Source: Gimesia fumaroli
Lineage (GTDB): Bacteria; Planctomycetota; Planctomycetia; Planctomycetales; Planctomycetaceae
Reading direction: 5' to 3'
Assembly (NCBI RefSeq): GCF_007754425.1
Contig: NZ_CP037452.1
Location: forward strand, 4,687,164 to 4,751,163
DNA: 64,000 nt
In this document: positions 55,129-59,821 of the stretch, one piece after another
How positions within the stretch are numbered: position 1 is the stretch's first letter
How the letters are laid out: the number at the start of each line of letters is the position of its first letter
Notes under the pieces: model-generated
The model's input: only the letters and a program-made list of their open reading frames with translations
Databases searched by the model: none
What the model was told of the DNA's origin: nothing
Position numbers and translations under genes: made by a program

Positions 55129-55608
55129 GTGACGGAAGAACTCACCGCCTATCATGAAGCGGGGCATGTATTAATGGCGGTACGGGTTGGCGCCCGCGTG
55201 CATTCGGTCACCATCGATCCAGACTGGGATGACGGGCCCGAACGGTTTGGCGATGCTCAAATTTCCTGGCCGGAGGGTGTGTTCGATGAAAAAACATTTC
55301 TGGAAAAAACCATCCTTGTTGCTCTCGCCGGTCCGGTTGCGGAGATGATTCATACGGGTGACCCATTTCACCCGGCTCTGGTAGGGGAATGGTCGGGAGA
55401 CTGGCAGCAGGCACTGCGTGCTGCGTCAATCCTCGTTTCTCAGCGACAGTCCCGATTAGAATTTCTGGAACAGAAAACAGTAGAGCTCTATCATTTGTTC
55501 CGAACCGACGCTTACTGGTGTGCGATTGGAGAACTGGTTGATCAATTGCTGGCCCATGAAACGCTGGAAGAAGAAATGATCAACGAAATCATCTCCACCT
55601 GGCTCTAA
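55129..55608 (+). CDS. stand-alone M41 (FtsH protease domain)-like protein
   Basis: 159 residues, GTG start at 55129. 'TAYHEAGHVLMAV' carries an HEAGH zinc motif (His9, Glu10, His13) exactly as at the start of the FtsH protease domain; 'VALAGPVAEMIH' and 'WSGDWQQALRAA' (Asp91, candidate third ligand) match the next FtsH helices. The AAA ATPase and membrane segments of FtsH are absent. It may be a small metallopeptidase or a zinc-binding remnant. Short spacing (16 bp) to the convergent GGCT-like gene; no operon partner. Confidence 0.8.
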   Translation: MTEELTAYHEAGHVLMAVRVGARVHSVTIDPDWDDGPERFGDAQISWPEGVFDEKTFLEKTILVALAGPVAEMIHTGDPFHPALVGEWSGDWQQALRAASILVSQRQSRLEFLEQKTVELYHLFRTDAYWCAIGELVDQLLAHETLEEEMINEIISTWL

Positions 55609-56170: not shown

Positions 56171-56647
56171 CGCTGTTGTTCTTTCCTCTCAGTCATCTCG
56201 AAGTGATTCGCACCAATCTCACCTCCTTTTGCAGGAATTTCCCACAAGGACAATTCGATTTCCTACAGATAAACCCCAACACGACGAACGCCCCCTTAAG
56301 TAGTATCCCCTAAGAACATTATTGAGGAAATGTTGAGGAGGGGAATCCTGTTCAAACGAACGTTACGTCATGATTATTTCCAGTAATCAAACTAATTGTT
56401 AGATCAGACTGATTTTACAGTTTTTTTGTAAATGAAACACCTCATCCCTGAGAGTTTTCCTGATATACAGACCCCCACATTTCCTTTCAAATCAAATATT
56501 ATTTGCAGGATTCGCCTTTAGTTAAAATGATTTTATTTTGCTCAATGTGCGCCCCGGTCAAAAACAGAAATTTAAAACACGTGCTACTGCGATTGTAAGG
56601 CGATACTTCAAACTGAAACCACTATGTTTATTTTTGGAAGCGTCCGT
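56171..56647. other. 477-bp divergent intergenic region with a hairpin
   Basis: Separates the GGCT-like gene (leftward) from the sensor kinase gene (rightward). Rich in A and T between 56380 and 56600. The stem-loop at 56306-56344 is the only clear structure; no RNA gene was recognised. Confidence 0.5.
56306..56344. other. two-part stem-loop
   Basis: TCCCCT (56306-56311) pairs with AGGGGA (56339-56344), and inside it AACATT (56315-56320) pairs with AATGTT (56329-56334), with small internal loops of 3 and 4 bases. Function unknown; no T-run follows. Confidence 0.4.
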
Positions 56648-58651
56648 ATGTCATTGAACCAATCTCAAGAAATCCAATCAGATCACAGCAAGCACCCGGT
56701 CTTGATCTGGGCTTCTGGCCTGGATCAGAGTCACGATTTTTTCAATCAGGCCTGGCTTGATTTTACTGAGAGTAGCGTGCATGAAAATATCAACGCCGGC
56801 TGGTTCCAGTTCATTCACCCGGATGATTTGCCTCTGTTTCGGTTGACGTACGAAAGAGCACTGGCAACACAACAACCATTTCAAATCGAATACCGCCTTA
56901 AGAAACATGATGGTACATATCGCTGGATGCAATGCCATGCTGTCCCTCGTCCCGATTTGGATGGCGACTTTTCCGGACTTATTGCCACGAATACGGATAT
57001 CCACGATCAACTGGTCAAAAAATCGGAACAGATCACATACGAAGAAAACTATGAACTGTTTCTTAACTGCATTACCGAAGGAATCTGGGACTGGATTGAC
57101 GTCAACTCGGACGAACAATGGTGGTCACCGCACTTTTATGAATTGCTGGGTTACCGTGACCAGGAACTGGAAGCCAGTGCCAGCACATTCAAACGGTTAC
57201 TGCACCCGGATGATCTTCAAGGTACATTAGAGGCCATCAACCAGTCACTGGAAAACGAAATCCCCTTCGGTACCGCATTTCGTTTAAGAATCAAAGGAGG
57301 CGAGTATCACTGGTTTCGCAGCACTGCCAAAATCATTCGCGATCTCAATGGGAATGCCGTTCGAATGACCGGTTCGATTTCCGACATTCATCGGCAAATC
57401 CTGGCGGAAGAAGCTTTAAAAGAGACCAGGAGATTAGCCGAGCAGGCACAACTGGAAAAAGAAACCTTTCTGGCACTGATGAGTCAGGAAGTCCGTACAC
57501 CGCTTTCGGCCATCTTAGGATTTTCCGAAATTCTGGGCGAATCCAGCGATGATCCGGAAACCCAGACCGTAGCGGAAACGATTCATACCAATGGTCAAAG
57601 CCTGTTAGACACAATTAATGACTTTCTCGATCTTTCCAAACTCGAAGAAGGGATGCTGGATATTGAAATTCTCGATTGCTGTCCCGTCAAGGTGATCGAA
57701 AATGTTCACATGCATATGGCGAAAAAAGCGGAGTTGATGGATCTGAAATTTGACATTGCATCTGAAACTGAAATCCCGGAAACCATTAAATCCGATCCCA
57801 TTCGTCTGAAGCAAATTCTCACAACCGTGATTGGCACCGCCATCAAACTGACTAAGAAAGGTAGCGTGAAACTCGGCGTCAAAACCACCGCTATGGCAAA
57901 TGGCACACACCAACTGACATTCAGGATCACAAATACCGGGACCGAACTTTCATTAGAACAATTCAGCGACCTGTTTACGCCCTATCGTCTGACGGATGAG
58001 TTAATGACGCACCCGGTAAGTGGTCTGGGACTAGGACTGGCGGTCAGTAAACATCTGACAGAACTGCTGGGAGGTCAGATTCAGGTCACCGATCAGGATA
58101 CTTCCAGCACGACAGTGGAGATTTCAATACCAGTGGGGGATATCAGTGAAGTCAAAATGGAAAAAGTTTCCGCTTCCAAACGTCTTGAGGAAATCAAAAC
58201 TTATAAGGCCTCTCATGATTTTCTAAAACAGAATTGCCATATCCTGCTCGTGGAAGACGGAATCTATAATCAACGTTTAATTAATTTTCTGCTCACCAAA
58301 GCGGGCGCAGAAATTACCATTGTCGAAAATGGCCAACATGCGATTGACGAATTAATGAAGAGCCGGGAGGTCGGAGATCCGATCGGGGATCCGTATGATC
58401 TGATCCTGATGGACATTCAGATGCCTGTGCTGGATGGATATTCTACCACACGCAAAATTCGCGCATTAGGATATACAAAACCGATCATTGCACTCACGAT
58501 CCATGCAATGGACAGCGACCGCCAGAAGTGTTTCGATGCAGGCTGTGATGAATATATGAGCAAACCGCTCGAACGAAAAAAATTGATCAGTATCATCAAT
58601 TCATTTCTGAGAAAACCACAGAAACAGAATCTGGTCGCTAAAGAAGCGTGA
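56648..58651 (+). CDS. hybrid sensor kinase-like protein with degenerate kinase core and intact receiver
   Basis: 667 residues; start placed at the ATG at 56648 behind GGAAG (the ATG at 56624 is possible). Two PAS domains (about 20-120 and 135-250: 'FIHPDDLPLFR', 'LLHPDDLQGTLE') precede a HisKA-like helix 'LALMSQEVRTPLSAILGFSEIL' region in which the phospho-accepting His is Gln280. In the ATPase domain the N-box Asn is Thr397 ('IGTAIKLTKKG') and the D-box 'NTGTE' has Asn429 for Asp; 'GLGLGLAVSKHL' remains. The receiver (about 530-660) keeps Asp537, Asp589, Thr617 and Lys639. It is soluble. Likely a signal-binding protein whose receiver is phosphorylated by another kinase. Confidence 0.92.
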   Translation: MSLNQSQEIQSDHSKHPVLIWASGLDQSHDFFNQAWLDFTESSVHENINAGWFQFIHPDDLPLFRLTYERALATQQPFQIEYRLKKHDGTYRWMQCHAVPRPDLDGDFSGLIATNTDIHDQLVKKSEQITYEENYELFLNCITEGIWDWIDVNSDEQWWSPHFYELLGYRDQELEASASTFKRLLHPDDLQGTLEAINQSLENEIPFGTAFRLRIKGGEYHWFRSTAKIIRDLNGNAVRMTGSISDIHRQILAEEALKETRRLAEQAQLEKETFLALMSQEVRTPLSAILGFSEILGESSDDPETQTVAETIHTNGQSLLDTINDFLDLSKLEEGMLDIEILDCCPVKVIENVHMHMAKKAELMDLKFDIASETEIPETIKSDPIRLKQILTTVIGTAIKLTKKGSVKLGVKTTAMANGTHQLTFRITNTGTELSLEQFSDLFTPYRLTDELMTHPVSGLGLGLAVSKHLTELLGGQIQVTDQDTSSTTVEISIPVGDISEVKMEKVSASKRLEEIKTYKASHDFLKQNCHILLVEDGIYNQRLINFLLTKAGAEITIVENGQHAIDELMKSREVGDPIGDPYDLILMDIQMPVLDGYSTTRKIRALGYTKPIIALTIHAMDSDRQKCFDAGCDEYMSKPLERKKLISIINSFLRKPQKQNLVAKEA

Positions 58652-58780
58652 TGCGGTTGAGCTGACAGAACGCAGGGATTACTTTGGTTGCCCTCGCAAC
58701 TTTTCACTCTGGTTTTATTCTGCTAAGATCGTCTTTTAACGACATCTGATAAAAGAATGTTTTACAGGAGTGCTTCCAGC

Positions 58781-59821
58781 GTGAGTGACAGCCCAATTAC
58801 TGATCCCCTGCCCGGCCCGTTTCAGATCCCCGCAGCATGGAAAGGCGACGAACTGTTTCAGAGACCGGACTGGTCTGTCAAACTGAATCAGCAACACCTG
58901 GACGATCTGCAGGAAGCACTTCAGGTAATCTCAATGGAAGGCCTGAGTCCCGAATCGATTACGGCGGAGCGGTTTCCGCTACCGCATCTAAGTCCGGTAT
59001 TGCAACAGATCCAGAAGCAACTCGAACAGGGTTCCGGGGCCTGTCAGTTGAAACAGATTCCCGTCGAAGCATACTCTCCGCACGAATTGGAGCAACTGTT
59101 CTGGTTGATCTCGGTGCATCTGGGAACTCCCGTTTCTCAAAGCGCTACCGGTGAGAAACTCTTTCACGTCCGCGATGAAGGTTATCAGATCGGTCAGGCA
59201 CAGGCGCGCGGTCCGAATACCCGCAAACGACTCAGCTTTCATACCGACCGGTGTGACGTAATCGGCTTCCTCTGCATTCAACAGGCGATTTCTGGTGGGG
59301 ATAATCAGCTGGTCAGTTCCGTCGCTCTCTTCAATGAAATGCGAGAGCGCTGGCCTGAGTTGACTCAGGTTCTAATGCAGCCTTTTTATTATCTGCGACA
59401 TAATGTGGATCAGGGAAACGCCAAACCATTCTGCCAGCAACCGGTCTTTTCGGTTCAGGACGGTCATTTTGCAGGCAGCTTTCTGCGTGTGCTGATCGAA
59501 CGTGCCTACGCCTCACCGGACCTGCCGGATATGACGCCTGTACAACAAGAGGCAATGGATCAGCTGGAAGCACTGGCGGAATCGCCGGAATTGAGTGTTA
59601 CCTTTCGTCAGGAACCCGGAGACCTGCTCTTTCTCAATAACTGGGTCACATTTCATCGGCGGGATGATTTCGAAGATTCTGAGGAAGCCAGTTTAAAACG
59701 GCATCTGCTCCGTGCCTGGCTGTCTGTTCCTAACAGTCGACCGCTGGACCCGCTCTTTGCAGACAACTATGGAAATACCGCTGCCGGCGCAGTGCGTGGC
59801 GGCATGCAGCCCACCCGTTGA
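58781..59821 (+). CDS. TauD/TfdA-family Fe(II)/2-oxoglutarate dioxygenase
   Basis: 346 residues. GTG start at 58781 chosen because AGGAG lies 10 bases upstream; an ATG at 58757 would add 8 residues and has no such site. The iron-binding H-x-D is in 'LSFHTDRCDVIGF', the distal His in 'WVTFHRRDDF', and the 2-oxoglutarate Arg in 'RHLLRAWLSVPNSRP'. These are the TauD hallmarks. Such enzymes hydroxylate small acids or amines using 2-oxoglutarate and oxygen; the substrate cannot be read. It is alone, 130 bp after the sensor kinase gene. Confidence 0.9.
   Translation: MSDSPITDPLPGPFQIPAAWKGDELFQRPDWSVKLNQQHLDDLQEALQVISMEGLSPESITAERFPLPHLSPVLQQIQKQLEQGSGACQLKQIPVEAYSPHELEQLFWLISVHLGTPVSQSATGEKLFHVRDEGYQIGQAQARGPNTRKRLSFHTDRCDVIGFLCIQQAISGGDNQLVSSVALFNEMRERWPELTQVLMQPFYYLRHNVDQGNAKPFCQQPVFSVQDGHFAGSFLRVLIERAYASPDLPDMTPVQQEAMDQLEALAESPELSVTFRQEPGDLLFLNNWVTFHRRDDFEDSEEASLKRHLLRAWLSVPNSRPLDPLFADNYGNTAAGAVRGGMQPTR

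Follow-up and report, generated by a model that had tools for sequence, protein, structure and literature searches.

A putative, maintained hybrid pseudo-histidine kinase of Gimesia fumaroli with a readable order of catalytic residue loss

Histidine kinase relatives without kinase activity have been described in a few well-studied bacteria, the cases being DivL, RetS and ChpT; Spo0B is a case similar to ChpT. The available text of PMC5992135 describes RetS of Pseudomonas aeruginosa as a protein with a degenerate HATPase domain and no autophosphorylation, in which an HExxT motif is present and two receivers, REC1 and REC2, are attached. According to the same source, the second receiver takes phosphate from GacS-P, residue T428 dephosphorylates the GacS receiver, and RetS also inhibits GacS autophosphorylation. 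In DivL of Caulobacter, a protein with PAS input, Tyr stands in place of the phospho-acceptor His; the available sections of PMC4211667 report that it has the N, G1, F and G2 boxes and the H box except for its His, that it binds nucleotide weakly, and that it binds DivK~P while showing neither kinase nor phosphatase activity. ChpT, likewise from Caulobacter, is a kinase-like DHp-CA unit alone, with a phosphate-carrying His, and no binding of ATP or ADP was seen in the crystals described in the available part of PMC3433190. The Gimesia fumaroli protein presented here is predicted to be a new, more degraded pseudo-histidine kinase, in which the order of loss can still be read. A search of the planctomycete histidine kinase literature, covering open-licence papers only, returned no account of a protein like this one; as evidence, this is weak.

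The gene lies at 56648-58651 on the forward strand of the window, the whole 64,000-nucleotide stretch of DNA that was analysed, and the domains and codons given below, as well as the downstream dioxygenase gene, are on the same strand. It encodes a 667-aa protein with the Pfam order PAS-PAS-HisKA-HATPase_c-REC, and it was delimited from its open reading frame, its Pfam matches and a comparison of starts with an orthologue. The frame is open throughout from 56624 to 58651, and ATG 56648 is the better start because the orthologue that is 86% identical, the nearest one found (L010, in the sister genome G014), lacks any ATG ahead of the corresponding position; the ATG at 56624 is consequently unsupported. 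The first PAS domain spans 56738-57004 (PAS_9, residues 39-127 in a 675-aa numbering), the second (PAS_3) 57122-57376, the HisKA/DHp domain 57458-57652, the degenerate HATPase_c/CA domain, placed by Pfam and alignments, 57794-58135, and the receiver, the single Response_reg match, 58241-58597. All profiles score over their cut-offs, with 63.8 bits for HisKA, 56.3 for HATPase_c, 81.5 for Response_reg and, for the two PAS_3 matches, 138.3 bits summed. The two PAS domains and the uninterrupted coding described in a first-pass annotation made from the DNA alone are thereby borne out, no stop lying inside the match in any of 12 orthologues. Taking into account that the HisKA and HATPase_c profiles both exceed their cut-offs, the pseudokinase is, on profile evidence, homologous to histidine kinases by descent. 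A structure model of the protein, built on a 4-sequence alignment, reached a mean pLDDT of 52 and was too poor to use.

Three kinase residues are altered. Gln280 (CAG, 57485-57487) occupies the position of the phospho-acceptor His, Thr397 (ACC, 57836-57838) that of the N-box Asn, and Asn429 (AAT, 57932-57934) that of the D-box (G1) Asp, within the motif NTGTE, where Glu433 takes a position that is mostly Gly in paralogues. The reading of these codons together with the alignments confirms the substitutions that the first-pass annotation had named, and the receiver residues that it had called intact are likewise all found: the acidic pair E536/D537, D589 (58412-58414, the predicted phosphorylation site), T617 and K639. 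The damage is short of total, as the G2 box (SGLGLGLA) and an F-box-like FTPY are retained and the DHp motif, QEVRT, has lost its His and still contains the Glu and the Thr (Thr284, 57497-57499, the T of the (H/Q)ExxT motif). Since three separate residues essential in established kinase chemistry are lost, autophosphorylation with ATP is very unlikely, and the predicted inability of the protein to carry it out can be held with near certainty.

The comparison with other kinases of the same genome, a single contig of 7.7 Mb, was based on PF00512 (HisKA) matches only. It returned 37 matches, the window locus included. The N-box Asn and the D-box Asp are present in 36/36 of the other loci, and so is the phospho-acceptor His (33 by alignment and 3 read by hand), whereas the window protein has none of the three and is therefore the exception among the PF00512 loci of its genome. 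It nevertheless shares the DHp-CA-REC order with the canonical PAS hybrid histidine kinases of this genome, one of which (G000:C1:7424953-7426212) is 42% identical to it over residues 248-668.

Orthologues, defined by E below 1e-150 and synteny, occur in 12 of the 17 genomes of the genus, the window's own included. Among 170 genomes of the family, for each of which 7 first-look candidates were scored, a match at 1e-105 was found in 13, namely the same 12 and G032, whose protein (L021) has His, Asn and Asp, unlike the 12 orthologues; four further matches at 1e-105 lie in three genomes of the genus. Of the matches at this level, the 12 orthologues and L021 were read for motifs. A named genome collection, from which records near the own genome may be left out, yielded 4 relatives and no orthologue, the best relative being 43% identical over residues 253-655 and encoded in a Planctomycetota MAG. 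The predicted hybrid pseudokinase has so far been found only in one genus.

The N-box Asn is gone in all 12 orthologues (replaced by T in 2, L in 5, A in 1 and V in 4), as is the D-box Asp (N in 8, F in 4). In contrast, His is present in 10 of them, and Gln occurs only in the window protein and in its G014 sister, with codon CAG in both. The receiver E/D, D, T and K are unchanged in 12/12, and so are the E and T of the DHp ExxT motif, H, E and T occurring all together in the ten that have His. Within the CA domain, FTPY (F-box) and GLGLG (G2) are found in the window and sister proteins; the other 10 have no F-box Pro, and a Ser replaces a G2 Gly in 6 of the 12. In a tree of 42 sequences, the orthologues group together as one clade (100/100), set off from the 30 remaining kinases, and a single change accounts for the distribution of the His state. 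On a parsimony reading, loss of the ATP-site residues would have preceded the divergence of the sampled orthologues and loss of the His would have followed it, a single time, so that the order is readable: the ATP site first, in every orthologue, then His, and the receiver residues never.

These findings qualify two points of the first-pass annotation. Regarding the conservation of Q280, T397 and N429, the N-box and D-box changes hold in 12/12, whereas the loss of His is confined to the window protein and G014. The annotation had also supposed that His-bearing orthologues would mean a recent local mutation or a sequencing error; such orthologues do exist, but this meaning does not follow from them, because the sister genome G014, at a dS of about 0.9, has the same CAG codon, which rules out both a sequencing error and a strain-specific mutation.

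The gene is under purifying selection and the protein is maintained, as the first-pass annotation had proposed. The window protein and its G014 counterpart differ by a dN of 0.076 and a dS of 0.93, and the resulting dN/dS of 0.081 lies between the extremes of 29 control kinase pairs (0.007-0.255); together with the stop-free matches in 12/12 orthologues, this value disfavours a pseudogene. Within this pair, the CA domain has a dN of 0.091 and a dS of 0.75, with 1 of 21 controls higher in dN. Its dN/dS of 0.12, calculated from rounded values, is exceeded by 3 of 21 controls, and CA is therefore relaxed in the pair but not uniquely so. The second PAS domain is nearly as free (dN 0.081), the DHp dN of 0.051 is the third highest of 19 pairs (2/18 controls higher), and the receiver, with a dN of 0.024 and 3/15 controls lower, is the most constrained of the four domains compared in this way.

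Stronger evidence for relaxation of CA than that from the window/sister pair comes from cross-species identity. When 10 of the 12 species were compared with one canonical hybrid kinase family of the same species, mean identity was 49% vs 87% for CA, 73% vs 95% for DHp and 72% vs 86% for REC, so that CA drops most. Over all 12 orthologues, CA is again the lowest of five domains (47%, vs 61% for PAS1, 63% for PAS2, 71% for DHp and 69% for REC). The DHp domain is somewhat relaxed in the window lineage, which tells against a strong DHp function.

A TauD-family dioxygenase gene directly downstream (58757-59821) adjoins the kinase in 12/12 orthologous loci, in one of which it is cut by the contig end; it is regarded as a neighbour only. 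In three TauD orthologues an in-frame TGA was considered and dismissed, as it lies upstream of their likely GTG start and the C-termini are normal. Upstream, an M41-like gene is present in 11/12 loci, the twelfth being on a 3-kb contig; in the window this gene (55129-55608) encodes a 159-aa protein with a sub-cut-off Peptidase_M41 match and has its relatives in the same 11 neighbourhoods. A gamma-glutamylcyclotransferase-like gene intervenes in 10 loci, is a fragment on the short contig and, among the 12, was not found at the G011 locus (L043), where the kinase is present. No partner was recognised among the scanned neighbours in the window, which comprise the TauD-family dioxygenase, a DUF454 protein, a xylose isomerase-like TIM barrel, the gamma-glutamylcyclotransferase-like protein, the M41-like fragment, an FAD oxidoreductase and a pectate lyase-like protein.

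The 17 genomes of the genus divide into 12 with the kinase, 4 without it and G007, which is not judgeable. In the four congeners G003, G002, G004 and G016 (L089, L090, L091 and L092), the kinase is missing although the neighbourhood is present, and the gene is dispensable because of this absence; G004 has no gamma-glutamylcyclotransferase-like gene either, and the G016 locus is on a short contig. On a neighbour-gene tree of 15 genomes, in which the fork joining the window pair to G004 and G011 is supported by 80/83 only, presence and absence need two changes, most simply two losses. Genomes with His, without His and without the gene provide matched natural variants for testing why kinase-dead hybrids persist.

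The pseudokinase probably acts by receiving or erasing the signal of another kinase. The mechanism entertained here, tentatively and with a confidence that comes close to even, is by analogy that of a RetS-like modulator of a canonical kinase or relay. The PAS domains would sense an input, no ATP-driven self-phosphorylation would take place, and Asp589 would take phosphate from another kinase or an HPt protein, as a sink or as a relay input; uptake from another kinase, which the first-pass annotation had already suggested, is plausible. The DHp/CA pseudo-core would pair with a partner kinase, and Thr284 may serve dephosphorylation of the partner's receiver. In the ten His-bearing relatives, for which ChpT is the model, the DHp could also pass phosphate between receivers, as ChpT does; the window protein itself differs from ChpT in its PAS domains, its receiver and its missing His. 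The likeness to RetS consists of the degenerate HATPase, the E and T of the phosphatase motif and the attached receiver, and among the 43 solved structures that match the DHp-CA core, the RetS chains 6dk8 and 6dk7 come fourth and fifth (6e-26). On alignment this likeness appears partial, since RetS itself has the His, the N-box Asn and the D-box Asp (6dk7/6dk8), all three of which the window protein lacks. RetS also has two receivers, as compared with one receiver plus PAS input here, and an HExxT instead of QEVRT, a difference in the His that the ten His-bearing orthologues do not show. The metabolic nature of the scanned neighbours, the still readable G2 box and FTPY and the dispensability of the gene in four congeners further argue against a RetS-like model.

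As described in the available parts of PMC3510030, the phosphatase activity of CrdS requires the N/T residue and is only slowed by H371A, the substrate half-life being 2.6 min with this variant, 0.7 with the wild type and 53.5 without enzyme; in PleC, H610A abolishes the phosphatase activity. For HK853, H260A is reported to diminish it (available text of PMC5727384). Survival of the phosphatase activity after loss of His varies between kinases; a literature search for NarX H399Q, in open-licence papers only, found nothing. Kinase activity, but not phosphatase activity, depends on the CrdS Glu equivalent to Glu281, according to the same parts of PMC3510030. Glu281 is also unchanged in 12/12 orthologues, and conservation of the motif therefore does not single out a phosphatase. 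The high DHp dN fits a lost DHp function as well as it fits a phosphatase role. A history in which a sensor-gated phosphotransferase or phosphatase, ATP-dead and His-bearing, gave rise to one lineage without His, left with a sensor-gated receiver whose kinase-like core only reads or erases a partner's phosphate, may apply but is more doubtful than credible.

Three other explanations were weighed against the RetS-like reading. The catalysis-free DHp/CA core might, as in DivL, bind a phosphorylated response regulator and inform a partner kinase, the receiver being regulatory or competing. The replacement of His by Gln, which would not be predicted to carry phosphate, the loss of key ATP-site residues, the activity-free binding of DivK~P by DivL and the match of DivL 4q20 to the DHp-CA core (1.1e-14) are consistent with this role. 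It is unlikely, since the boxes that DivL retains differ here, where FTPY and G2 remain without N-box Asn and D-box Asp and, unlike in DivL, a receiver is attached; the His of 10/12 orthologues makes pure reading improbable as the ancestral role of the group, and the receiver is under the tightest constraint in the window/sister pair. In a second alternative, only the receiver would be used, as a PAS-gated domain phosphorylated by other kinases, with DHp and CA left as a scaffold or a dimerisation relic. The lower dN of REC relative to both CA and DHp and the invariance of the receiver residues, set beside the 49% identity of CA across 10 species, favour such a use. However, CA is still under purifying selection, and the 73% identity of DHp with its invariant ExxT Glu and Thr is more than a relic needs, so that this explanation is likewise unlikely.

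Slow decay, in which the gene is on its way out, having lost its kinase before its His and having no present role, would agree with the two presence changes, with the stepwise disappearance of catalytic residues, with the absence of the first PAS domain from 5/12 orthologues and with a divergence above the control family in all three compared domains. It is nevertheless very improbable, taking into account the stop-free matches, a dN/dS within the control range and receiver residues intact in every orthologue. Moreover, the loss of the ATP site would predate the split of the 12, and a gene without function would hardly be expected to remain uninterrupted for so long. The RetS-like modulator, at the tentative level given above, accordingly stays the reading adopted here.

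Several minor features accompany these results. The five orthologues without the first PAS domain (L016-L020) have about 548 aa, vs about 667 aa. The G011 orthologue (L015) sits on the longest terminal branch of the group (0.86) and has a longer C-terminal tail and its His present, and G004, the neighbour of G011 on the neighbour-gene tree, has no kinase gene. Hpt matches in the G. fumaroli genome number 6, of which two lie in short frames of 104 and 190 aa, vs 37 HisKA matches, and none of the 6 was linked to the pseudokinase; HPt partners are few, if its hybrid kinases (uncounted) relay through HPt proteins.
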